A program made the position numbers and the translations under genes. This document shows positions 3,048-33,716 of a stretch of 64,000 nucleotides of DNA, piece by piece. The notes beneath the pieces were generated by a model. The model did not search any database, had not been told where the DNA came from, and worked only from the letters and a program-made list of their open reading frames with translations. The DNA is from Hysterangium stoloniferum. Lineage: Eukaryota; Basidiomycota; Agaricomycetes; Hysterangiales; Hysterangiaceae. The stretch covers positions 248,001 to 312,000 of the forward strand of contig WHVD01000089.1 in assembly GCA_015178975.1 (NCBI GenBank), read 5' to 3'. Position 1 is the first letter of the stretch; every line of letters starts with the position of its first letter.

Positions 3048-3670
3048 TGTTAATGGCATAGAAAAGAATTGACCCAGCCTGGGATTGAACCAAGGACCTC
3101 CTGGCTTTATATGCAGGTGCTCTTAACCACTGAGCTACTGGACCTATAGTCTAGTATTATATGATGGATTATATATACATATATATAAGGACTTATGATG
3201 CCAACTTGTGCTCTTATAACAGCTTATATAACTGATGGCAAACCTGGGTCTTATAACAGTCTGTCACATATAGATATTGTATTTTCCCATTTCTAACACT
3301 TCCCCTGAAATCAATATCTAGTCTATATACACAGCAGATGAAACTGAACGGGGCCCATAACCTGTTAAATGTGACCTGTGACTTACTGTGACATGTGACA
3401 CACACAAGTCTGAGGAAAGTTGTTACTATTCAGGTCACTAACTACAAGCTTATATATGTTATACATCAGTAGGCTTGTCAGCTGTCAAAAGTGACAGCTG
3501 GTTGACAGCTGTCAGAAGTGACAGCTGATTGACAGCTTGAATGGAAACTGACAGCTGATTGACAGCTGTCATGGGAAATGAACTGGAAATACTCTGGAAC
3601 ATGCTGGAAGGTTCTAGAAGGTTCTAGAAGGTTCCAGAAGGTCTTGGAGACAGTGGAGGCAGTTTTAACA
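3048..3670 (-). mobile_element. TRIM/Copia-1 hybrid: TRIM 3' LTR, TRIM interior, Copia 5' LTR
   Basis: Read on the minus strand, a Copia-1 LTR (3670-3363, 308 bp) is followed by the primer site GGTTATGGGCCCCG (3362-3349), the TRIM interior, and a 251-bp TRIM LTR (3298-3048) holding the tRNA-like block at 3144-3070. The left flank is Copia RT (ACTTG) and the right flank is Gypsy RT (CTTCG), so there is no TSD. The simplest reading is crossing-over between a TRIM inserted in Copia and a Copia inserted in Gypsy, in the primer-site region that both share. Confidence 0.7.
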
Positions 3671-4703
3671 CTTCGTAATGGACCTTCTATATTCCAAAGG
3701 GTTATGCAAACCGTACTTGCACCTTACTTATGGATATTCTGCCTAGTGTATATTGACGACATTGTGATCTTTTCTAAGACATGGGACGATTATCTAGAAC
3801 ATTTAGACCAGGTTTTACAAGCCATAATTGCAGCGGGAATCACTCTCTCACCAAAAAGGTATTACGTGGGGTATAATTCGATTCTACTACTAGGACATAA
3901 AGTGTCTAGACTCGGCTTTTCGACCCATCAAGAAAAGGTCACCACTATATTAGAATTAGCTATACCTTCTAAGATAGCAGATCTTCAACGTTTTCTAGGG
4001 ATGGTTCTGTACTTCTTTGCTTACATACCATTTTACTCCTGGATGGTTGCTCTACTTTTTAACCTCTTGAAGAAAGGAGTTCGTTGGAATTGGGATTCTG
4101 AACATGCCCGAGCTTTTGAGGACATCAAGGTTGCATTGAGCTCAGCTCCAGTACTCGGACACCCGGTGAGCGGTATGCCTTATCGGTTATACACAGACAC
4201 TTCAGACTTCGCGCTGGGATGTTGCCTCCAGCAAATACAAAAAATAATGCTTAAGGATCTAAAGGATACGAAAATTTATGCCCAAGCAAGGACAGCTTTC
4301 GATCAATCACGAGACGTCCCCATTTTTGTTACTCGTTATAAAACCAAGGAGCCGGAATTCACCTGGACGGCTTCCTGGGCCACAGATTTTGATGACACCA
4401 GTGTCACAGTCGAACGCGTTATCGCCTATTGGAGCCGTACGCTCAAGAAAGCGGAATGTAACTACTCAGCCACAGAGCGAGAAGCATTAGCTGCTAAAGA
4501 AGGATTGGTCCATTTCCAGCCCTTTATTGAGGGAGAACATATCCTTTTGATCACTGACCATGCGGTGTTACAATGGGCCAGATCTTACGAGAATACTAAT
4601 CGTAGACTGGCCGCATGAGGGGTGGTATATGCCGCATACCCCGGTCTGGAAATCCTACATAGAGCGGGACGAATACATAGCAATGTTGACCCACTGTCCA
4701 GAC
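3671..4703 (+). pseudogene. Gypsy RT-RNase H fragment
   Basis: The frame starts inside the RT palm (LRNGPS) and shows the catalytic YIDD motif, the connection region, the RNase H start LYTDTSDFALGC and the later DHAVLQWA motif, ending at DPLSRL. A TGA at 4616 replaces the TGG of a Trp found in the related copy near 38,137. It lacks the front of RT, the integrase and both LTRs. It is a broken copy of the same Gypsy lineage as the element at 14,294-52,750, joined on the left to a Copia LTR and on the right to an unrelated duplication. Confidence 0.85.
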
Positions 4704-5211
4704 TGTTAGAGTATGATGATTACGATTAGTATTAAATCATACCTCGTATTGTGAATGTATTTTTCCGGTCTGGTTCACATGTGATTAGCTATATTTAGTT
4801 TAGTGTTCCCTTAGTTCCAAACCAAGTGCACAGACCATGTAGCTTAGTATATAGTTACATCCAGATGAGAGTAGGACCTTATCTGGAAACCTAGCTATAT
4901 CACCGGTTTACTTCTACCCGCTCAGTCCTTAGTGGCATTCGCTCCAAGTGCCGAGAGTCATCGCACTGTTAGAGTATGATGATTACGATTAGTATTAAAT
5001 CATACCTCGTATTGTGAATGTATTTTTCCGGTCTGGTTCACATGTGATTAGCTATATTTAGTTTAGTGTTCCCTTAGTTCCAAACCAAGTGCACAGACCA
5101 TGTAGCTTAGTATATAGTTACATCCAGATGAGAGTAGGACCTCATCTGGAAACCTAGCTATATCACCGGTTTACTTCTACCCGCTCAGTCCTTAGTGGCA
5201 TTCGCTCCAAG
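4704..5211 (+). repeat. 263-bp direct tandem duplication
   Basis: Two near-identical copies begin with TGTTAGAGTATGATGATTAC at 4704 and 4967; the second runs to about 5211 and ends 18 bp or so short. A single base difference is visible (CCTTATC against CCTCATC). The first 14 bases match the start of the Copia-2 LTR, but the rest does not and no clean LTR end is visible. Identity unknown. Confidence 0.75.
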
Positions 5212-6237
5212 TATCCCTGCAGACATAACTATTTGTCCATTTGCAACTTGGATAGGTGTTTGAAACGGGGTATAACTTGAAAACCAATGACGATGGGGAG
5301 TCATGTGCGAAGAAGCACCTGTGTCAGCAGTCCAGTCAGAACTAGCATTGACAAGGAGAGCACAAGATGGATCGGTAGAGTCAGGGATAGAAACACTTGC
5401 ATTTCCAGCACTCTCTGGTTTCTTCTCTTCTGATACCTTGTCAGACGCATTAGCTTTGTCAGCCTTAGCAGTCTTTCTTTCTTTATACTCCTTTTTCTTC
5501 TGCTCAACTTTGGCCTTTGCCTGTTTCTGTGCATTTGCATACTCGTAACAATTGTCTTGGGTGTGGGTGGAACCATTGCAGAATGTGCAAGGAACTTTAC
5601 CAGAAGTGTTGGAAGTCTTTGACACAATTTTGTTCGCCGTCTCTAAACTTCTGGCAGACTGCAAACTCTCTTGTGATGCAAAGTGAGTTTTGACATCAGA
5701 GAATGTGATAGCAGTATTCATCATTAAAGATGAAGTCCACACAGAGTCAGATTCAGGTAGAGAACGAAGTAAAGTGAGAGCAGCAAGCTCATCATCCAGC
5801 ATGGCAAGAGTGTACCCCTTTGGACGCAAGTTCTGGACACGTGCACAAACCTTGTCAACACGACTCATTAATGAAGTTAGAGATTCATCAGGTTCCTTCC
5901 GAATATTAAAGAGGTCATTGTAGGCACTAAAACGAACTGCAGGGAGTTGTTTATTATGTGCCTTATCAATTTTAGACCACATATCATCAGGACCATTATC
6001 AATGTCAACATGGGTGCGCTGTGTAGGTCCAAGAGAGCGCCATATGATACCAGCTGCTTTATTGGAGCGCTCCAACCAGGCAGACTGTAAACTAGTCTCA
6101 CTAGGTTGTTTTTCTTTGCCAGTGGCAATAGAGAGACAGTTCTCCATACGCAAAAGACCAATTACGTCATGTCTCCAATCCTCATAATTATTCTCTCCCA
6201 ATATGACACTACGTTTGTAAGTATCACTGGATGCCAT
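5212..6237 (-). pseudogene. Copia-2 gag-protease, 3' truncated
   Basis: The minus-strand frame starts at the ATG at 6237 and reads about 340 codons. The first 190 residues look like the UBN2-type Gag of Copia elements (NNYEDWRHDV near the start). A CCHC zinc knuckle (CTFCNGSTHTQDNC) follows, then an aspartic protease site ADTGASSHM. The reading stops at 5211 where unrelated sequence begins, so integrase, RT and RNase H are missing. Gag would form the particle and the protease would process it. The protein is clearly different from the Copia-1 Gag, hence a second family. Confidence 0.85.
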
Positions 6238-6838: not shown

Positions 6839-7086
6839 TGTTGAAACAGTTGAATAACTCTTGACAAACACCCTGTGAGTGTGAGGAAAGTAAACACTAA
6901 GGAGACTTTTCCACACCCACAGCGGAGTATACTACAGGGTGCTTACCTAAGCACCTACACATCAGTTACCTTACTAGGTAACTCACTCAATACTGCACCT
7001 ACAGTGCTGGGAAAAATACTACAAATATCAGAAAAATATAGGGAACATCATAGACTATGTAAGAGCTGTAATATCATACTCTAACA
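6839..7086 (-). repeat. Copia-2 5' LTR
   Basis: A 248-bp block with ends TGTTAGAGTATGAT and TTTCAACA on the minus strand, directly followed by the shared half-tRNA primer site. The flank next to it is CAGTG; the matching TSD copy is lost with the other end. Confidence 0.75.
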
Positions 7087-8350
7087 CAGTGACACCATTG
7101 AGGATACCTGCATTCTGTGCAGTAACTCTGGCTGTAAACATAGTCTGTCCAGAGTGTTTGAAATGCATTGTTGTTCGATCAATGTGTATGAGTAGTCCTT
7201 TGTGCCTTGTGAGATAAAGACAAGACAGTAGGTTACTGCGCAGTTGTGGTACATGCAAAACTCTTGTAAGCTCCACAGATCGCGATTTCCTTCCATTTAT
7301 AACTGGGTTGAATACCACAGAACCAACTCCTGCAGAGTAGATAACAATATGATCTGCTAACTTGATTGGGACACATAATGGTGTGTAGTTACGCAGCCAA
7401 TGACTATGAGGAGTCATATGACTACTAGCACCTGTATCAGCAAGCCAATCATAGTCAGAACCATTCTGCAGGGTGGAGAAATCGGATAAGGAGAAAGCAA
7501 GTGCATTTCCAGTATATTCAACATTGTTCTGAGACATTGTCTTCTGAGCCCTATTTGGCTTCTTCTTCCCTTTAGCACTATTGGTAAGGACACTCTCCTG
7601 TGCTTCCTGCTGCTTCTTGATGAAGCGATGACACTTGTCCATAGTATGGTTGGTCATGGAGCAGAAAGTACATTTGAGAAATGCAGTGGATGCATTGCCC
7701 TTTACAGTAAGTGCAGATGCAACTGCAGGAGCTTGTGAAGCCCGATGACGGCGTTGTGACTCTTCTGTGACAAAAGCTTGTTGGATAGTAGCCTTGTCCA
7801 GCTTGTCCATCAGAAGGAGAGAAGAGGCAAAGTTGTCAAACTGCTCAGAAAGTGCCCTGATCATTGACATTGATGCAAGTTCCTCATCAAGTTTGGCAAG
7901 ATCAAAATTCAATGGGCGCAGATCCTGGATGGCACGGATGGCTAGATCCACCCGATTCATCAGAGTTTGCAAATTCTCATTCTCTTCCTTTCTGATGGAG
8001 AAGAGATCATCATACGCATTGAAGCGCATGCCAGGGCGCTTCTGCAAGTGTACATCACACAGACTGGTCCACATCTTGACCGGATCACCCTCAATCCCTT
8101 TAAGATGAATCTTTTGATCATCCTCAACACTCAAGTACATCCAACCTGCTGCTTTGTCTGACTTGAGAGCCCAAGCATCAAATGCAGTTTGCTGGGCCTC
8201 TGTGGGAGATGAGGATAGTGCAGGTGCAATGGAGGTGGCCTCAACAATGCGCCAGACACCCTGGGCACGAAGCCAAGCCTGCATCTCACCAGACCAGGTG
8301 TTGTAGTTATGAGAGTTGAGTTTAGGGAATTGGGGGATGGAAGATGACAT
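7087..8350 (-). pseudogene. Copia-1 gag-protease, full N-terminus, 3' interrupted
   Basis: The start is the ATG at 8350 (MSSSIPQFPK); the frame is open further upstream but that part is leader. About 230 residues of UBN2-type Gag (SHNYNTWSGEM, RFNAYDDLFSI) precede the zinc knuckle CTFCSMTNHTMDKC and the protease motif ADTGASSHM. The coding sequence is then cut by Copia-2 at 7086. This is the only copy here with a complete Gag N-terminus; the triplicated Copia-1 genes lack it. The product would be the structural and protease part of the polyprotein. Confidence 0.85.
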
Positions 8351-8593
8351 TGTAGTATACACAGAGCAAACTCGCAAAGAAGTTCAGAAAAAAAGGTATT
8401 TAACTCGAGGTCCAGACGGTAGTCTCGAGGGAAACTCAGCCTTAGTGGCGTACAAGTTCCTCCCTACTAGCAACAGCAATAAGGCTGGGCCTGGCAGGGG
8501 AATATAAAAGTATAGGCTGAAACTTACTCAAAAGAAGCGAGTTTGCAAAATGTTATACTGTACTAGAGCGCTTAGAGCGCGGGGCCCATAACC

Positions 8594-16068: not shown

Positions 16069-16283
16069 AGGAGTCTCTCAATGGAGTCACGCCAAATCTG
16101 CCGTTTGCATACTTCACTTTAAGAGGTCCACTGAAATGAAATCAAAGAAGACTCAATAAGATGGTTTTAGAGGTACTCCTCCCCTATAATGATTCGATAC
16201 AGGTCCCCAATTCACCTATCTCCACGACTAATTCGTTCGTTCACAACCTAAATGGGTCTCCAGATACTCGTTTCCTACGTTCT
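16069..16283 (+). pseudogene. Gypsy-1 gag, segment 2
   Basis: The gag frame resumes with EESLNGVT and FAYFTLRG, matching 63,256-63,475. A TGA near 16,134 stands where the copy at about 63,333 has CGA. The segment ends at the TRIM at 16,284. Confidence 0.8.
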
Positions 16284-16847
16284 TGTTAGAAATGGGAAAA
16301 TACAATATCTATGTGACAAACTGTTATAAGACCCAGGTTTGCCATCAGTTATATAAGCTGTTATAAGAGCACAAGTTGGCATCATAAGTCCTTATATATA
16401 TGTATATATAATCCATCATATAATACTAGACTATAGGTCCAGTAGCTCAGTGGTTAAGAGCACCTGCATATAAAGCCAGGAGGTCCTTGGTTCAATCCCA
16501 GGCTGGGTCAATTCTTTTCTATGCCTTTAACAGGTTATGGGCCCCGTTCGCTTGGTGCGCTGCATAGGGTATAGACTAGATATTGATTTCAGGGGAAGTG
16601 TTAGAAATGGGAAAATACAATATCTATGTGACAAACTGTTATAAGACCCAGGCTTGCCATCAGTTATATAAGCTGTTATAAGAGCACAAGTTGGCATCAT
16701 AAGTCCTTATATATATGTATATATAATCCATCATATAATACTAGACTATAGGTCCAGTAGCTCAGTGGTTAAGAGCACCTGCATATAAAGCCAGGAGGTC
16801 CTTGGTTCAATCCCAGGCTGGGTCAATTCTTTTCTATGCCTTTAACA
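16284..16847 (+). mobile_element. Complete TRIM element with tRNA-like gene in each LTR
   Basis: LTR 1 is 16,284-16,532 and LTR 2 is 16,599-16,847, 249 bp each, nearly identical. The 66-bp interior holds the primer site GGTTATGGGCCCCG directly after LTR 1 and the polypurine tract CAGGGGAAG directly before LTR 2, and no ORF. A perfect TSD, GTTCT, flanks it in Gypsy gag. It must borrow Gag and Pol; the primer site points to Copia. tRNA-like blocks are at 16,436-16,510 and 16,751-16,825. Confidence 0.9.
16436..16510 (+). tRNA. tRNA-like gene inside the TRIM LTR
   Basis: A 75-nt block folds as a cloverleaf. The acceptor stem is GGTCCAG with CTGGGTC, the D stem GCTC with GAGC, and the T stem CTTGG with CCAGG around TTCAATC. 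The A box TAGCTCAGTGG and B box GGTTCAATCC fit the Pol III consensus well, and TTTT follows five bases downstream. The anticodon arm is odd: CCTGC pairs with GCCAGG only with a bulged C; the 7-nt loop would be ATATAAA (anticodon AUA), otherwise CCTG/CAGG closes a 10-nt loop. It is probably tRNA-derived and transcribable but unlikely to serve in translation. The same block occurs in all complete TRIM LTRs here. Confidence 0.75.
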
Positions 16848-17365
16848 GTTCTCTCAACCGTCCTGTGATAATGGAGGACTTTCCGCTGGACTTGAGGACA
16901 CAGATGATAGAATGCCTTCAAGAAAAGAGGATTGAGGTCTGTGCTCCCTTTCATCAACCTCAGCCGCGTCGACTCCTGAACACGATGGAGATGGAGAGAC
17001 AAATCGCGATGGAATCTGGTCCCATGCCTGTTCAGGGAGATCCCCGCTCTCGCATCGCATTTGAGGGAGTTTCCAACAGCCCTAACGTTGGGAATGAGGT
17101 GACCACTGTCAGAAACCGATCGGTTGCCAGCAAGGGTCGACCATCCTTCTCTACAGCGTTCACTGAGGGTATAGCTGGCCCAGTTGCTGGTCGAGGATCG
17201 CTGAACCCAGACGGTCCCCACCATTCTCTACCGATCACTTCAAATTCTTTCTTGCCATCAGGAGGAGCCCCTAGTGATTCATCCGGGAGTTCGAATACTT
17301 CAGACCGAGGAGGGAACTTGGGACGTGGGGAGCACCACAATAGAGTGCCTAATACCCCTTTTTGA
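16848..17365 (+). pseudogene. Gypsy-1 gag, segment 3
   Basis: Resumes after the TRIM with LNRPVIMEDFPLDLRTQM and continues to a TGA at 17,363. The C-terminal part is rich in Ser, Gly and Pro. The copy at 63,475-64,000 aligns throughout. Confidence 0.8.
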
Positions 17366-17932: not shown

Positions 17933-18370
17933 TGTGAGGAGTATGCTTTTACCACAGTTTCATTGTGGTAAAACACTCCTTTTATTTCATTTATATTTTA
18001 CATATTCTATTCATATTTTACTATCTTTCACATTCTTCGAATATCGCATATTTCATTAGTTCAAAGCATTGTGTATACTTGTGGGTGCACTCAGCACCAA
18101 TTAGAACTCAGACACACTTTAACCCAAGAACCACCACTTGTAAGACACAAACTAGGTCTACTTGTTAAAACTGCCTCCACTGTCTCCAAAACCTTCTGGA
18201 ACCTTCTAGAACCTTCTAGAAGCTTCCAGCATGTTCCAGGGTATTCCCAGTTCATTTCCCATGAGAGCTGTCAATCAGCTGTCACTTTGTATTCCAGCTG
18301 TCAATCAGCTGTCAGTTTCCATTCAAGCTGTCAATCAGCTGTCACTTATGACAGCTGTCAACCAGCTGTC

Positions 18371-18938
18371 TGTTAAAGGCATAGAAAAGAATTGACCCAG
18401 CCTGGGATTGAACCAAGGACCTCCTGGCTTTATATGCAGGTGCTCTTAACCACTGAGCTACTGGACCTATAGTCTAGTATTATATGATGGATTATATATA
18501 CATATATATAAGGACTTATGATGCCAACTTGTGCTCTTATAACAGCTTATATAACTGATGGCAAACCTGGGTCTTATAACAGTCTGTCACATATAGATAT
18601 TGTATTTTCCCATTTCTAACACTTCCCCTGAAATCAATATCTAGTCTATACCCTATGCAGCGCACCAAGCTCACGGGGCCCATAACCTGTTAAAGGCATA
18701 GAAAAGAATTGACCCAGCCTGGGATTGAACCAAGGACCTCCTGGCTTTATATGCAGGTGCTCTTAACCACTGAGCTACTGGACCTATAGTCTAGTATTAT
18801 ATGATGGATTATATATACATATATATAAGGACTTATGATGCCAACTTGTGCTCTTATAACAGCTTATATAACTGATGGCAAACCTGGGTCTTATAACAGT
18901 CTGTCACATATAGATATTGTATTTTCCCATTTCTAACA
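18371..18938 (-). mobile_element. Complete TRIM in Copia-1 5' LTR
   Basis: LTRs 18,371-18,621 and 18,688-18,938 (251 bp each) with a 66-bp interior. TSD CTGTC on both sides. tRNA-like blocks on the minus strand at 18,467-18,393 and 18,784-18,710. Its first LTR is the left border of the tandem triplication. Confidence 0.9.
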
Positions 18939-19084
18939 CTGTCAACCAGCTGTCACTTATGACAGCTGACAAGCCTACTGATGTATAACATATATAAGCT
19001 TGTAGTTAGTGACCTGAATAGTAACAACTTTCCTCAGACTTGTGTGTGTCACGTGTCACAGTAAGTCACAGGTCACATTTAACA

Positions 19085-19098
19085 GGTTATGGGCCCCG
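19085..19098 (+). promoter_or_regulatory. Half-tRNA primer-binding site
   Basis: GGTTATGGGCCCCG follows the LTR end TTTAACA directly. It is complementary to the anticodon-arm region of initiator tRNA-Met, not to a tRNA 3' end, as known for Drosophila copia. The same site occurs in Copia-2 (6838-6825) and in all TRIM interiors. Confidence 0.8.
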
Positions 19099-19326
19099 CG
19101 CTCTAAGCGCTCTAGTACTGTATAACGTTTTGCAAACTCGCTTCTTTTGAGTAAGTTTCAGCCTATACTTTATATTCCCCTGCCAGGCCCAGCCTTATTG
19201 CTGTTGCTAGTAGGGAGGAACTTGTACGCCACTAAGGCTGAGTTTCCCTCGAGACTACCGTCTGGACCTCGAGTTAAATACCTTTTTTTCTCAACTTCTT
19301 TGCGAGTTTGCTGCGTCTATACTACA

Positions 19327-22300
19327 ATGCCATCTTCCATTCCCCAATTCCCTAAAGTCAATCAGACTAAAGGGAAGAAGGCAAACAGCACTCAAGAGAC
19401 AATGTCTCAGGGCAATGCACCCACTGCATTTCTCAAATGTGTTTTCTGCTCCATGACCAACCATACTATGGACAAGTGTCATCGCTTCATCAAGAAGCAG
19501 CAGGAAGCACAGGAGAGTGTCCTTACCAATCGTGCTAAAGGGAAGAAAAAGCCAAATAGGCCTCAGAAGACAATGTCTCAGAACAATGTTGAATATACTG
19601 GAAATGCACTTGCTTTCTCCTCATCCGATTCCTCCACCCTGCAGAATGGTTCTGACTATGATTGGCTTGCTGATACAGGTGCTAGTAGTCATATGACTCC
19701 TCATAGTCATTGGCTGCGTAACTACACACCATTATGTGTCCCAATCAAGTTAGCAGATCATACTGTTATCTACTCTGCAGGAGTTGGTTCTGTGGTATTC
19801 AACCCAGTTATAAATGGAAGGAAATCGCGATCTGTGGAGCTTACAAGAGTTTTGCATGTACCACAACTGCGCAGTAACCTATTGTCTTGTCTTTATCTCA
19901 CAAGACACAAAGGACTACTCATACACATTGATCGAACAACCATGCATTTCAAACTCTCTGGCCAGACTTTGTTTACAGCCAGAGTTACTGCACAGAATGC
20001 AGGCATCCTAAATGGTGCCACTGCACCTATTATTGAGCAAGCTGGTGCTGCCTCCACTCTTCCCTTTGATATCAATCTCTGGCATCGCCGTCTTGGACAT
20101 CACAGCTATGCTGATGTCCAGAAGATGATCAGAGAAGGATTGGTGGTTGGCTTAAACCTTGACTCAAAGGAACAACCTGATCCTATCTGTGAACCTTGCC
20201 TTGCTGGCAAAATGACTGCCAATCCATTTCCTACCTCACCAAGTCAATCTCAGACACCACTTGAGCTTATTCATAGTGATCTACATGGACCACTTCCTGT
20301 GCAAACAACTGAGGGTTATCACTACTGGATAACCTTCATTGATGATTGCACCAAGTTGCAAGCTGTTCTGTTCTTAAAACGGAAGAGTGATGCATTTGAA
20401 GCATTCAGGAGATACAAAGCTTATGCTGAGAATCTTCTGGGTTGCAAGGTCAAAGCTCTGCAGGATGACAAAGGGGGTGAATACATGTCAAATGCTTTCA
20501 TCAAGTTTACAGATGAATGTGGAATAGCACGCCGTCATACTACTCGCAATCGCCCTCAACAGAATGGAGTTGCAGAACGAGCCAATCGTACCTTGGCTGA
20601 TCATGTCACTGCCATGATGCATGAAGCGCGTATGCCTGCCTCATTCTGGAATCATGCTGTGGCATCTTATGTCTATGTATGGAATCGTCTGCCTACTGCA
20701 CCATTGCCTAAAACTACACCCTATGAGCAATGGTACAAACAGAAACCAGATGTGAGCAACTTGCGAGTGTGGGGGTGTACTGCCTATGTTTACATTCAAA
20801 AGGACAAAAGGAAGTCACTTCAGTCACACATGGAGAAATGCCTCTTTCTAGGCTATCCTGTGGGATACAAAGGTTGGCAATTCTACAACCCTGTTACAAA
20901 GAAGTTTATCATCTCTGAACGGGCTGTATTTGATGAACGCCACTTTCCTGGTCTATCTACTACTGGACCAATGCCTAATATTAGGCTTTTCCCAAATATA
21001 CCAAACTCTGACATTCCTTTATTTGTGCCAGAAGTAGAGGGGGATAATGATATTTCTGTCCCTCCTACTCATATTCCTGCACCTCCTGCTTATATTCCTG
21101 CACCTCCTGTTCAGATTCCTGCACCTCCTGCTCAGATTCCTGCACTTCCTGAACCCATTCAACTACCTCCTCCACCTGCACCAGAACCACAGCTTCGTCG
21201 CTCTCAGCGTGTTCCAAAGCAACCTGGTGAATGGTGGAAGGTACAACCAGCTCCAGCTCTAGCTGAAGATGATGATGAGGACATTGATTATGAGGAAGTA
21301 CAGTTTGTTGGAACAGCTTCAACTGCTGATCCACAAAACTACAAGCAGGCTATGAAAGGTGATGATGCAGATAAATGGCAAGAGGCTATAAATGCAGAGT
21401 ACAATACACTGGTAGAAAACAAGACATGGGAACTTGTTGACCTCCCAGTTGGTGCAAAGGCAATTGGTTCGGGTTGGGTGTTTAAAGTCATACACAATGC
21501 AGATGGCACCATTGAGCGTTATAAAGCTCGTCTTGTTGCCAAAGGATACTCACAACGTCCTGGCATTGACTACAATGAAGTGTTTGCACCTACTTTTAGA
21601 CCTGCCACTCTGCGTTTGATTCTGGCCCTAGCTGCCATTGAAGACATGGACTTGCGCTCTGTTGACATTTCTGCTGCTTTCACCCATGGTGACCTTGATG
21701 AGACAATCTATATGAGACAACCTGAAGGCTTCCATCAAGGAGGTCCTAATAAGGTTCTCAGACTCTTGAAATCACTTTATGGTCTCAAGCAGGGATCTCG
21801 TCAATGGAACATCAAGTTACATGGTGCACTTACTGAAATGGAGTTCAAACGAATTGAATCTGATACCTCTGTTTACATTTATTCAAATGGAGAGGTCAAG
21901 ATCTTTGTACCCATTTACATTGATGATATTACATTTGCATCCAAGTCCACTCTTGCCATTGACAAAGCTGTCAAGCAATTGTCCCTGCATTTCAAATGCC
22001 GTGATCTTGGATCCACTGTTTATTTACTTGGTGTGGGAGTTAGCAGAGATCGCTCTAAGCGACTCCTTACTCTTGATCAGCGACAGTTTATTCTCAACAT
22101 GCTTGAGCGTTATAAAATGTCTGATTGTCATCCAGTTCTCACACCTATGACACCTGGTACATCTCTTTCCAAAGAAATGGGTCCTGAGAATGCTGCAGAG
22201 GTGGATTTCATGCGTAGTGTTCCTTATCTCAGTGCTGTTGGGTCTTTACAATACCTGGCTACTATGACCCGTCCAGATATTGCTTATACTGTGTCCTACT

Positions 22301-22887
22301 TGGCACGTTTTAATGGCAATCCTGGACCAAAGCATTGGACAGCAGTGAAGCACTTGTTCAGATACCTAAAAGGTACACTGGAATACAAGTTGCATTACTC
22401 TGGTAAATGTGGCTCTGAATTATTTACCACATACACTGATGCTGCTCATGGTGATTGCATTGATTCTGGAAGATCCACTGGTGGTTATGTAACTATGATG
22501 GCTGGAGGTGCTATTGGCTGGAGTAGTAAACTACAAAGTATTGTCACACTTTCTACAACTGAAGCAGAATTTGTCTCTGCTGTAGAAGCTGGCAAGGAGA
22601 TTGCCTGGATGCGGCAAATCCTAGGTGAATTTGGCTACCAAGTTGATCAACCCTCCACTCTACACATTGACAACCAGTCTGCCATCAGTGTTGCTAAGAA
22701 CCCTGAGCATCATGGAAGGATGAAACATCTTGACCTGCGCTACTATTGGCTTAGGGATGCTGTAAATGCCAAGTGTATTGCTCCTTCCTATATTCCTACT
22801 GCAGAACAAATTGCAGATATTCTAACCAAGCCTCTATCTACTCCCAAGGTTCAATTTTGCCGCGATGGAATGGGTATAAGGACTTAG
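19327..22887 (+). CDS. Copia-1 polyprotein, gag-deleted (unit 1)
   Basis: I choose the ATG at 19,327 (MPSSIPQFPK), homologous to the start of the long-gag copy at 8350; the 60 open codons upstream are leader. The product is about 1,186 residues: CCHC zinc knuckle (C38, C41, H46, C51), aspartic protease ADTGASS (near 115-121), pre-integrase LWHRRLGHH, integrase core with HSDLHGP (about 315), LQDDKGG (about 377) and NGVAER (about 413), a proline-rich linker (PAPPAYIPAPP), RT from WVFKVIHNADG with YIDD near 864, and RNase H with TDAAHGD, TEAEF and DILTKPL at the end. The first 200 or so Gag residues are absent, replaced by a lysine-rich block copied from downstream. It would process, copy and integrate element RNA, with Gag supplied in trans. 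No stop or frameshift. Confidence 0.92.
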   Translation: MPSSIPQFPKVNQTKGKKANSTQETMSQGNAPTAFLKCVFCSMTNHTMDKCHRFIKKQQEAQESVLTNRAKGKKKPNRPQKTMSQNNVEYTGNALAFSSSDSSTLQNGSDYDWLADTGASSHMTPHSHWLRNYTPLCVPIKLADHTVIYSAGVGSVVFNPVINGRKSRSVELTRVLHVPQLRSNLLSCLYLTRHKGLLIHIDRTTMHFKLSGQTLFTARVTAQNAGILNGATAPIIEQAGAASTLPFDINLWHRRLGHHSYADVQKMIREGLVVGLNLDSKEQPDPICEPCLAGKMTANPFPTSPSQSQTPLELIHSDLHGPLPVQTTEGYHYWITFIDDCTKLQAVLFLKRKSDAFEAFRRYKAYAENLLGCKVKALQDDKGGEYMSNAFIKFTDECGIARRHTTRNRPQQNGVAERANRTLADHVTAMMHEARMPASFWNHAVASYVYVWNRLPTAPLPKTTPYEQWYKQKPDVSNLRVWGCTAYVYIQKDKRKSLQSHMEKCLFLGYPVGYKGWQFYNPVTKKFIISERAVFDERHFPGLSTTGPMPNIRLFPNIPNSDIPLFVPEVEGDNDISVPPTHIPAPPAYIPAPPVQIPAPPAQIPALPEPIQLPPPPAPEPQLRRSQRVPKQPGEWWKVQPAPALAEDDDEDIDYEEVQFVGTASTADPQNYKQAMKGDDADKWQEAINAEYNTLVENKTWELVDLPVGAKAIGSGWVFKVIHNADGTIERYKARLVAKGYSQRPGIDYNEVFAPTFRPATLRLILALAAIEDMDLRSVDISAAFTHGDLDETIYMRQPEGFHQGGPNKVLRLLKSLYGLKQGSRQWNIKLHGALTEMEFKRIESDTSVYIYSNGEVKIFVPIYIDDITFASKSTLAIDKAVKQLSLHFKCRDLGSTVYLLGVGVSRDRSKRLLTLDQRQFILNMLERYKMSDCHPVLTPMTPGTSLSKEMGPENAAEVDFMRSVPYLSAVGSLQYLATMTRPDIAYTVSYLARFNGNPGPKHWTAVKHLFRYLKGTLEYKLHYSGKCGSELFTTYTDAAHGDCIDSGRSTGGYVTMMAGGAIGWSSKLQSIVTLSTTEAEFVSAVEAGKEIAWMRQILGEFGYQVDQPSTLHIDNQSAISVAKNPEHHGRMKHLDLRYYWLRDAVNAKCIAPSYIPTAEQIADILTKPLSTPKVQFCRDGMGIRT

Positions 22888-22988
22888 TTTCTTGTTTTCT
22901 TTCTTACTCTCTGTAGTTTAGCAAAGTCTCTCTCTCTCTCTCTCTCTCTGTTTCTTTTTCTTTGGAGACATGTGAGATCAGGGGGGTC

Positions 22989-23337
22989 TGTTAAAACTGC
23001 CTCCACTGTCTCCAAAACCTTCTGGAACCTTCTAGAACCTTCTAGAAGCTTCCAGCATGTTCCAGGGTATTCCCAGTTCATTTCCCATGACAGCTGTCAA
23101 TCAGCTGTCACTTTGTATTCCAGCTGTCAATCAGCTGTCAGTTTCCATTCAAGCTGTCAATCAGCTGTCACTTATGACAGCTGTCAACCAGCTGTCAACC
23201 AGCTGTCACTTATGACAGCTGACAAGCCTACTGATGTATAACATATATAAGCTTGTAGTTAGTGACCTGAATAGTAACAACTTTCCTCAGACTTGTGTGT
23301 GTCACGTGTCACAGTAAGTCACAGGTCACATTTAACA
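22989..23337 (+). repeat. Copia-1 3' LTR (unit 1)
   Basis: A 349-bp LTR with ends TGTTAAAACTGCC and GTCACATTTAACA. It contains the heat-shock array, nine perfect CAGCTG motifs in TGACAGCTG or CAGCTGTCA context, a TATATAA box near 23,244 and a CACGTG motif near 23,303. Confidence 0.9.
23020..23052 (+). promoter_or_regulatory. Heat-shock element array in Copia-1 U3
   Basis: Seven contiguous alternating TTC and GAA triplets, each spaced by two bases, fit the nTTCnnGAAn consensus for heat-shock factor without a mismatch. Three further TTC triplets follow at 10-bp steps. The array is present in every Copia-1 LTR here, for example near 3600-3640, 8880, 10,450, 15,776, 18,194, 39,190 and 43,870. 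Confidence 0.75.
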
Positions 23338-23591
23338 CTACTACGAGCGGTGATCAGGGTAACGTGTCAGCTACTACATAAGTAGCAATATCTGAACTAC
23401 TAAACACTTCTGGCCTCGAACTGTAATAGTCAAGGCCTCCACTCGAACCATCGCACTTGTTGACTCCTTCATCATCTTGTGCTCTTTCTCTCACTTTCTC
23501 TTATATTGCACCGAATAGGTCAATATCCTCCTCTTCTACTCATTTCTTCGTATATAGAACGGTCTGAACTTCTACCACTCTTCACACTTAT

Positions 23592-23784
23592 GCTAATAAC
23601 CTGCAAGAAGCTCTGATTAACGCTTGGGTCCAAACACACTGGGAACGTTATAGGTTCCAGAAACCACGTGTAATGTTAGCAGAGGGTCAGGAAGTGGATT
23701 TTAGAGTCACCGACGACTTCTCTTCACCTAACCAGGTTCTCGTTAGTAAGACTAATGAGAGAGGCTCGACGAGAAGGATCGTCC
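23592..23784 (+). pseudogene. Gypsy-1 gag fragment, duplicated copy 1
   Basis: ANNLQEALINAWVQTHW onward continues the capsid-like segment that ends at 17,932. It was carried along with the tandem repeat; identical pieces are at 29,006-29,198 and 34,421-34,613. Only the last is followed by the rest of gag. Confidence 0.85.
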
Positions 23785-24352
23785 TGTTAATGGCATAGAA
23801 AAGAATTGACCCAGCCTGGGATTGAACCAAGGACCTCCTGGCTTTATATGCAGGTGCTCTTAACCACTGAGCTACTGGACCTATAGTCTAGTATTATATG
23901 ATGGATTATATATACATATATATAAGGACTTATGATGCCAACTTGTGCTCTTATAACAGCTTATATAACTGATGGCAAACCTGGGTCTTATAACAGTCTG
24001 TCACATATAGATATTGTATTTTCCCATTTCTAACACTTCCCCTGAAATCAATATCTAGTCTATACCCTATGCAGCGCACCAAGCTCACGGGGCCCATAAC
24101 CTGTTAAAGGCATAGAAAAGAATTGACCCAGCCTGGGATTGAACCAAGGACCTCCTGGCTTTATATGCAGGTGCTCTTAACCACTGAGCTACTGGACCTA
24201 TAGTCTAGTATTATATGATGGATTATATATACATATATATAAGGACTTATGATGCCAACTTGTGCTCTTATAACAGCTTATATAACTGATGGCAAACCTG
24301 GGTCTTATAACAGTCTGTCACATATAGATATTGTATTTTCCCATTTCTAACA
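23785..24352 (-). mobile_element. Junction TRIM between units 1 and 2
   Basis: The left LTR (23,785-24,035) has the left flank CGTCC and start TGTTAATGG of the solo TRIM at 34,614 but continues into the TRIM interior like the element at 18,371. LTR 2 is 24,102-24,352. The flanks do not match each other (CGTCC against CTGTC), as expected for a crossover product. tRNA-like blocks at 23,881-23,807 and 24,198-24,124. Confidence 0.9.
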
Positions 24353-24740
24353 CTGTCAACCAGCTGTCACTTATGACAGCTGACAAGCCTACTGATGTAT
24401 AACATATATAAGCTTGTAGTTAGTGACCTGAATAGTAACAACTTTCCTCAGACTTGTGTGTGTCACGTGTCACAGTAAGTCACAGGTCACATTTAACAGG
24501 TTATGGGCCCCGCGCTCTAAGCGCTCTAGTACTGTATAACGTTTTGCAAACTCGCTTCTTTTGAGTAAGTTTCAGCCTATACTTTATATTCCCCTGCCAG
24601 GCCCAGCCTTATTGCTGTTGCTAGTAGGGAGGAACTTGTACGCCACTAAGGCTGAGTTTCCCTCGAGACTACCGTCTGGACCTCGAGTTAAATACCTTTT
24701 TTTCTCAACTTCTTTGCGAGTTTGCTGCGTCTATACTACA

Positions 24741-27700
24741 ATGCCATCTTCCATTCCCCAATTCCCTAAAGTCAATCAGACTAAAGGGAAGAAGGCAAAC
24801 AGCACTCAAGAGACAATGTCTCAGGGCAATGCACCCACTGCATTTCTCAAATGTGTTTTCTGCTCCATGACCAACCATACTATGGACAAGTGTCATCGCT
24901 TCATCAAGAAGCAGCAGGAAGCACAGGAGAGTGTCCTTACCAATCGTGCTAAAGGGAAGAAAAAGCCAAATAGGCCTCAGAAGACAATGTCTCAGAACAA
25001 TGTTGAATATACTGGAAATGCACTTGCTTTCTCCTCATCCGATTCCTCCACCCTGCAGAATGGTTCTGACTATGATTGGCTTGCTGATACAGGTGCTAGT
25101 AGTCATATGACTCCTCATAGTCATTGGCTGCGTAACTACACACCATTATGTGTCCCAATCAAGTTAGCAGATCATACTGTTATCTACTCTGCAGGAGTTG
25201 GTTCTGTGGTATTCAACCCAGTTATAAATGGAAGGAAATCGCGATCTGTGGAGCTTACAAGAGTTTTGCATGTACCACAACTGCGCAGTAACCTATTGTC
25301 TTGTCTTTATCTCACAAGACACAAAGGACTACTCATACACATTGATCGAACAACCATGCATTTCAAACTCTCTGGCCAGACTTTGTTTACAGCCAGAGTT
25401 ACTGCACAGAATGCAGGCATCCTAAATGGTGCCACTGCACCTATTATTGAGCAAGCTGGTGCTGCCTCCACTCTTCCCTTTGATATCAATCTCTGGCATC
25501 GCCGTCTTGGACATCACAGCTATGCTGATGTCCAGAAGATGATCAGAGAAGGATTGGTGGTTGGCTTAAACCTTGACTCAAAGGAACAACCTGATCCTAT
25601 CTGTGAACCTTGCCTTGCTGGCAAAATGACTGCCAATCCATTTCCTACCTCACCAAGTCAATCTCAGACACCACTTGAGCTTATTCATAGTGATCTACAT
25701 GGACCACTTCCTGTGCAAACAACTGAGGGTTATCACTACTGGATAACCTTCATTGATGATTGCACCAAGTTGCAAGCTGTTCTGTTCTTAAAACGGAAGA
25801 GTGATGCATTTGAAGCATTCAGGAGATACAAAGCTTATGCTGAGAATCTTCTGGGTTGCAAGGTCAAAGCTCTGCAGGATGACAAAGGGGGTGAATACAT
25901 GTCAAATGCTTTCATCAAGTTTACAGATGAATGTGGAATAGCACGCCGTCATACTACTCGCAATCGCCCTCAACAGAATGGAGTTGCAGAACGAGCCAAT
26001 CGTACCTTGGCTGATCATGTCACTGCCATGATGCATGAAGCGCGTATGCCTGCCTCATTCTGGAATCATGCTGTGGCATCTTATGTCTATGTATGGAATC
26101 GTCTGCCTACTGCACCATTGCCTAAAACTACACCCTATGAGCAATGGTACAAACAGAAACCAGATGTGAGCAACTTGCGAGTGTGGGGGTGTACTGCCTA
26201 TGTTTACATTCAAAAGGACAAAAGGAAGTCACTTCAGTCACACATGGAGAAATGCCTCTTTCTAGGCTATCCTGTGGGATACAAAGGTTGGCAATTCTAC
26301 AACCCTGTTACAAAGAAGTTTATCATCTCTGAACGGGCTGTATTTGATGAACGCCACTTTCCTGGTCTATCTACTACTGGACCAATGCCTAATATTAGGC
26401 TTTTCCCAAATATACCAAACTCTGACATTCCTTTATTTGTGCCAGAAGTAGAGGGGGATAATGATATTTCTGTCCCTCCTACTCATATTCCTGCACCTCC
26501 TGCTTATATTCCTGCACCTCCTGTTCAGATTCCTGCACCTCCTGCTCAGATTCCTGCACTTCCTGAACCCATTCAACTACCTCCTCCACCTGCACCAGAA
26601 CCACAGCTTCGTCGCTCTCAGCGTGTTCCAAAGCAACCTGGTGAATGGTGGAAGGTACAACCAGCTCCAGCTCTAGCTGAAGATGATGATGAGGACATTG
26701 ATTATGAGGAAGTACAGTTTGTTGGAACAGCTTCAACTGCTGATCCACAAAACTACAAGCAGGCTATGAAAGGTGATGATGCAGATAAATGGCAAGAGGC
26801 TATAAATGCAGAGTACAATACACTGGTAGAAAACAAGACATGGGAACTTGTTGACCTCCCAGTTGGTGCAAAGGCAATTGGTTCGGGTTGGGTGTTTAAA
26901 GTCATACACAATGCAGATGGCACCATTGAGCGTTATAAAGCTCGTCTTGTTGCCAAAGGATACTCACAACGTCCTGGCATTGACTACAATGAAGTGTTTG
27001 CACCTACTTTTAGACCTGCCACTCTGCGTTTGATTCTGGCCCTAGCTGCCATTGAAGACATGGACTTGCGCTCTGTTGACATTTCTGCTGCTTTCACCCA
27101 TGGTGACCTTGATGAGACAATCTATATGAGACAACCTGAAGGCTTCCATCAAGGAGGTCCTAATAAGGTTCTCAGACTCTTGAAATCACTTTATGGTCTC
27201 AAGCAGGGATCTCGTCAATGGAACATCAAGTTACATGGTGCACTTACTGAAATGGAGTTCAAACGAATTGAATCTGATACCTCTGTTTACATTTATTCAA
27301 ATGGAGAGGTCAAGATCTTTGTACCCATTTACATTGATGATATTACATTTGCATCCAAGTCCACTCTTGCCATTGACAAAGCTGTCAAGCAATTGTCCCT
27401 GCATTTCAAATGCCGTGATCTTGGATCCACTGTTTATTTACTTGGTGTGGGAGTTAGCAGAGATCGCTCTAAGCGACTCCTTACTCTTGATCAGCGACAG
27501 TTTATTCTCAACATGCTTGAGCGTTATAAAATGTCTGATTGTCATCCAGTTCTCACACCTATGACACCTGGTACATCTCTTTCCAAAGAAATGGGTCCTG
27601 AGAATGCTGCAGAGGTGGATTTCATGCGTAGTGTTCCTTATCTCAGTGCTGTTGGGTCTTTACAATACCTGGCTACTATGACCCGTCCAGATATTGCTTA

Positions 27701-28301
27701 TACTGTGTCCTACTTGGCACGTTTTAATGGCAATCCTGGACCAAAGCATTGGACAGCAGTGAAGCACTTGTTCAGATACCTAAAAGGTACACTGGAATAC
27801 AAGTTGCATTACTCTGGTAAATGTGGCTCTGAATTATTCACCACATACACTGATGCTGCTCATGGTGATTGCATTGATTCTGGAAGATCCACTGGTGGTT
27901 ATGTAACTATGATGGCTGGAGGTGCTATTGGCTGGAGTAGTAAACTACAAAGTATTGTCACACTTTCTACAACTGAAGCAGAATTTGTCTCTGCTGTAGA
28001 AGCTGGCAAGGAGATTGCCTGGATGCGGCAAATCCTAGGTGAATTTGGCTACCAAGTTGATCAACCCTCCACTCTACACATTGACAACCAGTCTGCCATC
28101 AGTGTTGCTAAGAACCCTGAGCATCATGGAAGGATGAAACATCTTGACCTGCGCTACTATTGGCTTAGGGATGCTGTAAATGCCAAGTGTATTGCTCCTT
28201 CCTATATTCCTACTGCAGAACAAATTGCAGATATTCTAACCAAGCCTCTATCTACTCCCAAGGTTCAATTTTGCCGCGATGGAATGGGTATAAGGACTTA
28301 G
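24741..28301 (+). CDS. Copia-1 polyprotein, gag-deleted (unit 2)
   Basis: The protein is the same as that of the gene at 19,327, with an open frame of about 1,186 codons and all catalytic motifs (ADTGASS, HSDLHGP, YIDD, TDAAHGD). It arose by tandem duplication and not by its own insertion: it lacks its own TSD and its 5' LTR is only the last 146 bp before 24,498 behind a TRIM. Transcription from a full LTR would therefore need the 3' LTR of unit 1 at 22,989 and read through the gag fragment and TRIM. Confidence 0.9.
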   Translation: MPSSIPQFPKVNQTKGKKANSTQETMSQGNAPTAFLKCVFCSMTNHTMDKCHRFIKKQQEAQESVLTNRAKGKKKPNRPQKTMSQNNVEYTGNALAFSSSDSSTLQNGSDYDWLADTGASSHMTPHSHWLRNYTPLCVPIKLADHTVIYSAGVGSVVFNPVINGRKSRSVELTRVLHVPQLRSNLLSCLYLTRHKGLLIHIDRTTMHFKLSGQTLFTARVTAQNAGILNGATAPIIEQAGAASTLPFDINLWHRRLGHHSYADVQKMIREGLVVGLNLDSKEQPDPICEPCLAGKMTANPFPTSPSQSQTPLELIHSDLHGPLPVQTTEGYHYWITFIDDCTKLQAVLFLKRKSDAFEAFRRYKAYAENLLGCKVKALQDDKGGEYMSNAFIKFTDECGIARRHTTRNRPQQNGVAERANRTLADHVTAMMHEARMPASFWNHAVASYVYVWNRLPTAPLPKTTPYEQWYKQKPDVSNLRVWGCTAYVYIQKDKRKSLQSHMEKCLFLGYPVGYKGWQFYNPVTKKFIISERAVFDERHFPGLSTTGPMPNIRLFPNIPNSDIPLFVPEVEGDNDISVPPTHIPAPPAYIPAPPVQIPAPPAQIPALPEPIQLPPPPAPEPQLRRSQRVPKQPGEWWKVQPAPALAEDDDEDIDYEEVQFVGTASTADPQNYKQAMKGDDADKWQEAINAEYNTLVENKTWELVDLPVGAKAIGSGWVFKVIHNADGTIERYKARLVAKGYSQRPGIDYNEVFAPTFRPATLRLILALAAIEDMDLRSVDISAAFTHGDLDETIYMRQPEGFHQGGPNKVLRLLKSLYGLKQGSRQWNIKLHGALTEMEFKRIESDTSVYIYSNGEVKIFVPIYIDDITFASKSTLAIDKAVKQLSLHFKCRDLGSTVYLLGVGVSRDRSKRLLTLDQRQFILNMLERYKMSDCHPVLTPMTPGTSLSKEMGPENAAEVDFMRSVPYLSAVGSLQYLATMTRPDIAYTVSYLARFNGNPGPKHWTAVKHLFRYLKGTLEYKLHYSGKCGSELFTTYTDAAHGDCIDSGRSTGGYVTMMAGGAIGWSSKLQSIVTLSTTEAEFVSAVEAGKEIAWMRQILGEFGYQVDQPSTLHIDNQSAISVAKNPEHHGRMKHLDLRYYWLRDAVNAKCIAPSYIPTAEQIADILTKPLSTPKVQFCRDGMGIRT

Positions 28302-28402
28302 TTTCTTGTTTTCTTTCTTACTCTCTGTAGTTTAGCAAAGTCTCTCTCTCTCTCTCTCTCTCTGTTTCTTTTTCTTTGGAGACATGTGAGATCAGGGGGG
28401 TC

Positions 28403-28751
28403 TGTTAAAACTGCCTCCACTGTCTCCAAAACCTTCTGGAACCTTCTAGAACCTTCTAGAAGCTTCCAGCATGTTCCAGGGTATTCCCAGTTCATTTCCC
28501 ATGACAGCTGTCAATCAGCTGTCACTTTGTATTCCAGCTGTCAATCAGCTGTCAGTTTCCATTCAAGCTGTCAATCAGCTGTCACTTATGACAGCTGTCA
28601 ACCAGCTGTCAACCAGCTGTCACTTATGACAGCTGACAAGCCTACTGATGTATAACATATATAAGCTTGTAGTTAGTGACCTGAATAGTAACAACTTTCC
28701 TCAGACTTGTGTGTGTCACGTGTCACAGTAAGTCACAGGTCACATTTAACA
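28403..28751 (+). repeat. Copia-1 3' LTR (unit 2)
   Basis: Same 349-bp LTR as at 22,989, followed by the LTR C half (28,757-29,000) and the gag fragment 29,006-29,198. Confidence 0.9.
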
Positions 28752-29198
28752 CTACTACGAGCGGTGATCAGGGTAACGTGTCAGCTACTACATAAGTAGC
28801 AATATCTGAACTACTAAACACTTCTGGCCTCGAACTGTAATAGTCAAGGCCTCCACTCGAACCATCGCACTTGTTGACTCCTTCATCATCTTGTGCTCTT
28901 TCTCTCACTTTCTCTTATATTGCACCGAATAGGTCAATATCCTCCTCTTCTACTCATTTCTTCGTATATAGAACGGTCTGAACTTCTACCACTCTTCACA
29001 CTTATGCTAATAACCTGCAAGAAGCTCTGATTAACGCTTGGGTCCAAACACACTGGGAACGTTATAGGTTCCAGAAACCACGTGTAATGTTAGCAGAGGG
29101 TCAGGAAGTGGATTTTAGAGTCACCGACGACTTCTCTTCACCTAACCAGGTTCTCGTTAGTAAGACTAATGAGAGAGGCTCGACGAGAAGGATCGTCC

Positions 29199-29766
29199 TG
29201 TTAATGGCATAGAAAAGAATTGACCCAGCCTGGGATTGAACCAAGGACCTCCTGGCTTTATATGCAGGTGCTCTTAACCACTGAGCTACTGGACCTATAG
29301 TCTAGTATTATATGATGGATTATATATACATATATATAAGGACTTATGATGCCAACTTGTGCTCTTATAACAGCTTATATAACTGATGGCAAACCTGGGT
29401 CTTATAACAGTCTGTCACATATAGATATTGTATTTTCCCATTTCTAACACTTCCCCTGAAATCAATATCTAGTCTATACCCTATGCAGCGCACCAAGCTC
29501 ACGGGGCCCATAACCTGTTAAAGGCATAGAAAAGAATTGACCCAGCCTGGGATTGAACCAAGGACCTCCTGGCTTTATATGCAGGTGCTCTTAACCACTG
29601 AGCTACTGGACCTATAGTCTAGTATTATATGATGGATTATATATACATATATATAAGGACTTATGATGCCAACTTGTGCTCTTATAACAGCTTATATAAC
29701 TGATGGCAAACCTGGGTCTTATAACAGTCTGTCACATATAGATATTGTATTTTCCCATTTCTAACA
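29199..29766 (-). mobile_element. Junction TRIM between units 2 and 3
   Basis: A second chimeric TRIM with the same composition and unequal flanks as the one at 23,785. tRNA-like blocks at 29,295-29,221 and 29,612-29,538. Confidence 0.9.
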
Positions 29767-30154
29767 CTGTCAACCAGCTGTCACTTATGACAGCTGACAA
29801 GCCTACTGATGTATAACATATATAAGCTTGTAGTTAGTGACCTGAATAGTAACAACTTTCCTCAGACTTGTGTGTGTCACGTGTCACAGTAAGTCACAGG
29901 TCACATTTAACAGGTTATGGGCCCCGCGCTCTAAGCGCTCTAGTACTGTATAACGTTTTGCAAACTCGCTTCTTTTGAGTAAGTTTCAGCCTATACTTTA
30001 TATTCCCCTGCCAGGCCCAGCCTTATTGCTGTTGCTAGTAGGGAGGAACTTGTACGCCACTAAGGCTGAGTTTCCCTCGAGACTACCGTCTGGACCTCGA
30101 GTTAAATACCTTTTTTTCTCAACTTCTTTGCGAGTTTGCTGCGTCTATACTACA

Positions 30155-33100: not shown

Positions 33101-33716
33101 TCCAGATATTGCTTATACTGTGTCCTACTTGGCACGTTTTAATGGCAATCCTGGACCAAAGCATTGGACAGCAGTGAAGCACTTGTTCAGATACCTAAAA
33201 GGTACACTGGAATACAAGTTGCATTACTCTGGTAAATGTGGCTCTGAATTATTCACCACATACACTGATGCTGCTCATGGTGATTGCATTGATTCTGGAA
33301 GATCCACTGGTGGTTATGTAACTATGATGGCTGGAGGTGCTATTGGCTGGAGTAGTAAACTACAAAGTATTGTCACACTTTCTACAACTGAAGCAGAATT
33401 TGTCTCTGCTGTAGAAGCTGGCAAGGAGATTGCCTGGATGCGGCAAATCCTAGGTGAATTTGGCTACCAAGTTGATCAACCCTCCACTCTACACATTGAC
33501 AACCAGTCTGCCATCAGTGTTGCTAAGAACCCTGAGCATCATGGAAGGATGAAACATCTTGACCTGCGCTACTATTGGCTTAGGGATGCTGTAAATGCCA
33601 AGTGTATTGCTCCTTCCTATATTCCTACTGCAGAACAAATTGCAGATATTCTAACCAAGCCTCTATCTACTCCCAAGGTTCAATTTTGCCGCGATGGAAT
33701 GGGTATAAGGACTTAG
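30155..33716 (+). pseudogene. Copia-1 polyprotein, gag-deleted, one-base frameshift (unit 3)
   Basis: The copy matches units 1 and 2 except for one extra T in a run at about 30,676-30,681 (GAGTTTTTGC against GAGTTTTGC). The frame from 30,155 therefore ends at 30,706, just after the protease, and a second frame covers integrase, RT and RNase H to 33,716. If real, the copy makes no integrase or RT as a fusion. If it is a homopolymer sequencing error, the gene is intact like its neighbours. Confidence 0.88.

Follow-up and report, generated by a model that had tools for sequence, protein, structure and literature searches.

An intact TRIM of 564 bp lies on the forward strand at positions 16284–16847 of the window, by which we mean the whole stretch of DNA analysed (64 kb). 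It consists of two 249-bp LTRs (16284–16532 and 16599–16847) that differ by one substitution and a 66-bp interior (16533–16598) that is too short for coding, and it is flanked by the 5-bp TSD GTTCT (16279–16283 and 16848–16852). The initial annotation had placed LTRs of about 250 bp and an interior of 66 bp at exactly this location. The 5' LTR, which begins with TGTTAG and ends with TTTAACA, is proposed to comprise a TA-rich and variable U3 of 152 bp (16284–16435), a tRNA-like block with A and B boxes that would serve as promoter and core of R (16436–16510, LTR positions 153–227), and a U5 region (16511–16532) that includes a run of four T residues (T4, 16515–16518) four bases past the block, these limits of U3, R and U5 being the ones we infer. 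The interior opens with a primer-binding site, GGTTATGGGCCCCG (16533–16546), that is exactly complementary to the host's initiator tRNA-Met in its anticodon arm. It closes with a purine-rich tract, TTTCAGGGGAAG (16587–16598, approximate limits), that abuts the 3' LTR and that its sequence and the junction patterns described below identify as the polypurine tract.

The tRNA-like block and its counterpart in the 3' LTR (16751–16825) each scored 48.6 bits against the Rfam tRNA model RF00005 (E = 2.4e-7 for 64 kb), whose gathering score is 29 bits, and the tRNA-model score, which had been set as a check on the annotation, was thus not at background level. Blocks above this threshold were present in all 23 complete LTRs of the window, scoring 48.6 bits in 20 copies, 47.1 bits in two and 41 bits in one. 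Box A (TAGCT, TGG) and box B (GGTTC) lie inside 16436–16510. A 75-nt cloverleaf with good A and B boxes and a TTTT stop had been claimed for every complete LTR; the blocks stand in 23 of 23 copies, but the word cloverleaf is generous, since alignment to the tRNA model leaves the block with one base too many in its anticodon arm and its unconstrained fold is not a cloverleaf. A chance resemblance to tRNA is ruled out by the E value and the 23 copies, a 5S or Cassandra-type origin by the Rfam search of the window, which found only tRNA, and a SINE identity by the two LTRs, the primer-binding site and the 5-bp TSDs. When the block was compared with ten host tRNAs, two tRNA-Cys genes scored best (72 each) with Val-AAC near them (70), which makes tRNA-Cys no more than a candidate parent. 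TRIMs with tRNA-derived sequence in the LTR, including fungal ones, have been named "Helenus" (Kojima 2024, PMC10886601, cited here and below from excerpts), and the opinion in the initial annotation that a tRNA-based fungal counterpart of Cassandra had not been described is therefore mistaken, as Helenus elements are exactly of that description.

The window contains 24 LTR matches, of which 23 are complete (one without its first 2 nt), and the sole match without a tRNA-like block is a 147-bp fragment at 60707–60853. At 60707–61109, LTR positions 1–145 stand head-on to a full inverted LTR with the first few nucleotides of the primer site, an arrangement that looks like self-integration or a strand switch. 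Matching 5-bp flanks were found around five complete TRIMs, namely the element at 16284 and those at 18371–18938 (reverse strand, GACAG), 38451–39028 (forward, GTTAT), 43243–43811 (reverse, CTGTC) and 59482–60052 (reverse, TAAAC), and around two solo LTRs, both on the reverse strand (34614–34864, GGACG, and 49799–50049, GAATC). The LTR pairs of the five complete TRIMs differ by 1, 0, 0, 3 and 0 substitutions, respectively, which indicates that the insertions are young. The outer flanks of a three-LTR tandem TRIM (46738–47624, reverse) are unlike each other, and unmatched flanks were also seen at the truncated, rearranged or hybrid copies that begin at 3048, 10152, 48739 and 60859. A 5.4-kb unit containing a Copia element and a TRIM is present as a tandem triplication with about 99.9% identity at 18370–34877, and its inner TRIMs (23785–24352 and 29199–29766) carry the mixed flanks GACAG/GGACG, which point to unequal crossing-over between TRIM LTRs. 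Other retrotransposon pieces in the window (RVT_1/RNase H, RVT_1, integrase and Copia-type gag) were observed at 3578–4618, 36474–37559, 47641–48393, 5185–6237 and 7055–8377.

We then considered copies throughout the genome (111.1 Mb, 554 contigs). The LTR search gave 317 first-look candidates, of which 40 were scored to yield 63 matches, the copies studied being the most similar ones, and 33 loci outside the window were taken from these matches. Among them, matching 5-bp flanks were present at 10 of 16 single LTRs and at 6 of 11 loci with at least two LTRs, and in the other six a single LTR adjoined an interior; L060, in which seven LTRs follow one another, is bounded by a single TSD, AATAC. 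The LTR end joined to the primer site occurs 429 times in the genome at no more than one mismatch, and the reversed control occurs not at all. We classed 48 distinct primer-site junctions (44 loci), taken as the first in contig order, and at 19 of them the adjoining interior was that of a second TRIM family (L101, L111, L115 and others), which on this sample is probably more numerous than the first. In L101, the LTR of this family has 128 bp (a 34-bp U3, a 72-nt tRNA-like block, tRNA-Ile(TAT) according to ARAGORN, and a 22-bp U5) and the interior 155 bp, and three LTRs, each without T4, share one TSD (TCGTG). The tandem tRNA arrays on contigs C112 and C68 and elsewhere were rejected as further Helenus families, as L018, L025 and L033 have no primer-site string and look like tandem tRNA genes. 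Such arrays (L018, L022, L025 and L033, on contigs C68, C112, C410 and C183) consist of many intron-bearing tRNA-like genes of 94–95 nt in tandem units spaced at 404–447 bp (L022, L025, L033) or about 1250 bp (L018), which ARAGORN mostly calls Stop(TTA) and which we read as Lys-CTT with an intron. Another repeat, containing GGGGGAGCGCCGGGCCCATA and often spaced at about 375 bp, was seen at L042, L044 and many other places (contigs C37, C85, C241 and others).

An exact complement of the initiator tRNA-Met anticodon arm begins the interior not only of the TRIM (14 nt) but also of the second family (15 nt) and of the window's Copia element (17 nt). The three host initiator tRNA-Met genes (L039, L040, L041) are intronless and have C33 (in our numbering). 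Self-priming was rejected, the longest complement between the first 31 interior nucleotides and the element's own tRNA-like block being 5 nt. The Copia element (18163–23337, forward) has 349-bp LTRs, the TSD CTACT and a primer-binding site identical to that of the TRIM, and the reverse-strand TRIM at 18371–18938 is inserted in its 5' LTR. Its LTRs have the termini TGTTA and TTTAACA, as does the TRIM LTR. The Copia open reading frame (19147–22887, forward, 1246 aa) contains RVT_2, SH3_retrovirus, Pol_BBD and gag_pre-integrs domains, together with an rve match of 31.2 bits that is slightly under the Pfam cut-off of 32.6. Three of the 120 listed relatives of this protein carry an organism name, and these organisms (Sparassis crispa, Taiwanofungus camphoratus and Agrocybe chaxingu) are all agaricomycetes, from which the host, too, is probably an agaricomycete.

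Hybrid insertions that combine these two families were found with exact patterns, so that all counts of them are lower bounds. The Copia LTR end followed by the primer site and G or T occurs at 14 places, and the TRIM LTR end followed by the primer site and C at five; native TRIM primer-site junctions, sought in the same way, number 55. One of the 14 places is a Copia remnant (L132), and the remaining 13 lead into the TRIM interior. These 13 and five places represent at least 15 distinct elements joined at the primer site, where L130 and L145, and likewise L136 and L146, are the same elements, and L128 and L142 (separated by 4.25 kb, TTTTT flanking each on its outer side) were taken as one. 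We read 11 of the 15 out to both ends (all except L130, L136, L139 and the truncated L141), and 8 of these 11 have a matching 5-bp TSD. Elements of the plan Copia LTR–TRIM interior–TRIM LTR had matching TSDs in six of eight cases (L129, ACGCG; L133, CCTGG; L134, AAAGA; L135, TTACA; L137, CTGTC; L138, GATTT), L131 and L140 being unmatched. The reverse plan, TRIM LTR–Copia interior–Copia LTR, had a matching TSD in one of two cases (AGAGA in L144 but none in L143), and a composite on contig C2 (L142/L128) with the TSD TTTTT runs TRIM LTR–Copia interior–Copia LTR–TRIM interior–TRIM LTR; for these elements only the ends were read, and AGAGA and TTTTT are weaker evidence because they are of low complexity. 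Each of the six simple hybrids with a TSD has a different Copia LTR, with 90.5 to 98.9% similarity to that of the window Copia, suggesting that these six were made separately. Two hybrids lie on the reverse strand of the window: L140 (3048–3670) consists of a Copia LTR (3363–3670), a TRIM interior (3299–3362) and a TRIM LTR (3048–3298), and the truncated L141 (48739–49095) retains the last 40 nt of a Copia LTR, a TRIM interior and a TRIM LTR. At the opposite junction, where the polypurine tract of one family would meet the LTR of the other, hybrid combinations were found at no genome place in either direction at up to three mismatches, whereas like patterns found 74 native TRIM and 72 native Copia junctions.

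Because the 5-bp TSDs match around the whole element, each TSD-matched hybrid represents a single integration. As these hybrids are joined at the shared primer site, they establish, at the level of sequence and as a record of past events, that DNA of the TRIM and DNA of the window's Copia family were synthesised and integrated jointly. The occurrence of hybrids at the primer-site junction and not at the opposite one is what strand transfer between co-packaged templates predicts. In the simplest case, plus-strand strong-stop DNA of one element (U3-R-U5-primer site) would pair with the primer site at the 3' end of the other element's minus strand in the same particle, and the product would have a foreign 5' LTR with native interior and native 3' LTR, as seen in the hybrids. 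Repeated transfer would yield composites and strings such as L060. The same plan appears in another pair of families, as L111 (C58:157300–158500) shows by its order of Y-type LTR, second-family interior and LTR, and Y-type interior, Y being another element family. In L157, a subfamily 1b LTR (see below) is followed by a Y-type interior.

Alternatively, the hybrids might have been formed by recombination between integrated elements, or between extrachromosomal circles and resident copies, at the 21-bp stretch of LTR end and primer site that the two families share. The hybrid junction always lies within the shared TTTAACAGGTTATGGGCCCCG, though the search patterns demanded this; tandem and composite elements (L060, C2:477–482 kb and L111) fit circle insertion, and the triplicated 5.4-kb unit with its mixed TSDs demonstrates that plain unequal crossing-over has occurred in the window too. 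Composites and L060-like strings may indeed have originated by recombination. However, two separate insertions would provide matching 5-bp flanks by chance in only about 1 in 1024 cases each, and 8 of the 11 bounded hybrids have them, so we consider this origin unlikely for the hybrids as a class. Recombination of cDNA outside a particle could also have produced them.

Sequence constraint within the LTR was evaluated over 68 copies, which are the 72 complete matches less four from the duplicated 5.4-kb units, and which are not all independent, as tandem and hybrid copies were kept. Nucleotide diversity (pi) was 0.0174 in U3, 0.0035 in the tRNA-like block and 0.0053 in U5; T4 had no variant, and LTR positions 228–239 were invariant. 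Variable sites numbered 27 of 152 in U3, 7 of 75 in the block and 3 of 22 in U5, and by such counts U3 and block did not differ significantly within the family (Fisher p = 0.11). A second subfamily (1b: L124, L152, L155, L156 and L157; TSD CATGT in L124) gave a clearer contrast, with L124 differing from the first subfamily at 38 of 149 U3 positions, 4 of 74 block positions (U3 versus block, p = 2e-4) and 1 of 22 U5 positions, and L152 at 38 of 149, 6 of 73 and 1 of 22, respectively. The expectation that the block would be nearly unchanged while the TA-rich part varied was thus borne out by diversity and between subfamilies, if not by the site count alone. The block differences of L124 are confined to the anticodon arm, L152 has two additional changes in the D loop, L156 has a deletion in the A-box region, and L155 is without T4. 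Two mosaic copies (L153 and L154) are of subfamily 1a sequence but show the 1b letter at a single U5 position, which is too little to place a breakpoint from which R could be mapped. The divergence between subfamilies is more in keeping with selection for promoter activity than for a functional tRNA.

Against this, the block could be a passenger, captured from a tRNA or a SINE, in an element transcribed by RNA polymerase II from its TATA-rich U3 in the manner of ordinary TRIMs. About 25–43 nt upstream of the block there is a TATA-like stretch, TATATATATGTATATATAA, most of which the second subfamily has retained, so that a Pol II start is possible in the family of 16284–16847, and the non-significant within-family site test is also compatible with this explanation. 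A passenger should drift like U3, however, and the two subfamilies differ far less in the block than in U3; moreover, the second family keeps a full tRNA-like block behind a U3 of 34 bp that has no TATA-like stretch and little room for a Pol II promoter, which makes an internal Pol III promoter the natural reading of that family. For these reasons we judge a passenger block to be quite improbable. That the LTRs spread real, host-usable tRNA genes is very improbable indeed: 23 blocks per 64 kb do score as tRNA and ARAGORN names an isotype for the second family, but in the family of 16284–16847 the anticodon arm is irregular, the unconstrained fold is no cloverleaf and the L124 differences fall in the anticodon arm, and PMC10886601 (in excerpt) likewise rejects working tRNAs for most Helenus.

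A Pol III promoter is the best reading of the block, given the retained A and B boxes, the T4 that is invariant in 68 copies and the 34-bp U3 of the sister family. According to the model that we propose, RNA polymerase III would start at the tRNA-like block of the 5' LTR, would frequently read past the weak T4 of that LTR and would terminate at the T4 in the 3' LTR, which would place the block at both ends of the RNA and let it act as the R region. A T4 directly after the block should stop part of the Pol III transcripts. The first run of at least four T residues had five or more in 11 of 14 host tRNA genes looked at and four in the other three, and the TRIM T4, being shorter than most of these terminators, fits a leaky stop. 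Initiator tRNA-Met, probably after cleavage in the anticodon arm, would then prime reverse transcription, a step for which the sequence support is strong. We regard this explanation as a whole (a Helenus element with Pol III RNA, the block as R, initiator tRNA-Met priming, and DNA made together with that of Copia) as likely. Its most specific form, in which the block is the R of a Pol III genomic RNA and in which Pol III TRIM and Pol II Copia RNAs are routinely co-packaged with plus-strand switching at the identical initiator tRNA-Met site, we put forward tentatively, as somewhat short of an even prospect. If this is true, co-packaging with switching would generate two-way hybrids, including Copia interiors behind a tRNA-promoted 5' LTR, and strings of units within a single TSD.

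By its structural features, on which we base this assignment, the element at 16284–16847 belongs with Helenus, as a non-autonomous LTR retrotransposon that inserted recently. It is shorter than 1000 bp and has two LTRs and no coding capacity. The tRNA-derived sequence is present in both its LTRs, as in every complete LTR of the window; TAGCT, TGG and GGTTC agree with the Helenus boxes TRGCY/YGG (box A) and GGTTC (box B); and the interior is bounded by the 14-nt initiator tRNA-Met complement and by the purine-rich CAGGGGAAG before the 3' LTR. The 5-bp TSD known from fungal Helenus surrounds the five complete TRIMs and two solo LTRs of the window, the recombinant, truncated and hybrid copies there being unmatched, and mobilisation by Copia, also a fungal Helenus feature, is indicated by the shared primer site and the TSD-bearing hybrids. 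Likewise, in the excerpted text of PMC10886601, Helenus elements have tRNA-derived sequence with A and B boxes in each LTR, a primer-binding site, a polypurine tract and a Copia-like partner; most families are under 1000 bp, fungal ones have 5-bp TSDs, and in most fungal families the primer-binding site is complementary to the anticodon region of initiator tRNA-Met, as here. Tandem arrays are reported in those excerpts for one fish family and occur here too. The same source connects primer tRNAs used at the anticodon loop with intron-containing genes, whereas the three host initiator tRNA-Met genes here are intronless. The Copia partner was deduced there from likeness of the primer-binding site and one internal similarity, and here there are hybrid insertions also, of which we found no mention in the excerpts of PMC10886601 and, going by title or abstract opening, none in the papers that searches of open-access literature listed.

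The parallel with Cassandra that the initial annotation drew is apt, in that both are TRIMs whose LTR contains the promoter of a small-RNA gene. Cassandra, however, is a plant TRIM with 5S rRNA-derived LTR sequence, whereas the element here has tRNA sequence only, the Rfam search of the window at gathering thresholds having found no 5S rRNA; among the candidates for Pol III transcription (TRIMp3), Cassandra alone is called validated (PMC10886601, in excerpt). Priming from a tRNA anticodon loop is known from Ty5 and Drosophila copia, as cited in the same excerpts. Here, it would be shared by a TRIM and its putative helper. To our knowledge, Ty5 and Drosophila copia are autonomous and without tRNA-like LTRs.

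With its two Helenus-type families, this genome offers a means of testing both Pol III transcription and co-packaging. The LTR blocks inflate tRNA counts in such fungi, and dating by LTR pairs fails where the two LTRs have different parents. LTR swapping between autonomous and non-autonomous elements is reportedly the subject, by its title, of work on soybean by Du et al. in 2010. In grasses, co-packaging and template switching have been invoked to explain complexes of three LTRs with a single 5-bp TSD (Sabot and Schulman 2007, PMC1950507, in excerpt), but there the elements are related, the three LTRs are alike and the switch occurs at R, whereas here the elements are unlike, one of them has tRNA-like LTRs, the joint lies at the primer site and the product usually has two unlike LTRs. 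The hybrid LTRs of Arabidopsis Onsen (PMC5668417, in excerpt) arose by recombination within one autonomous family, and here two families are involved. What appears to be new in this genome is the exact 14-nt initiator tRNA-Met site common to TRIM and Copia, the hybrids, the contrast between U3 and block, and the family with a 34-bp U3. Because hybrids with TSDs record joint copying and integration, they provide a direct record of a helper and its dependant copied and integrated together, and they allow the partner of a TRIM to be named from the genome sequence alone.
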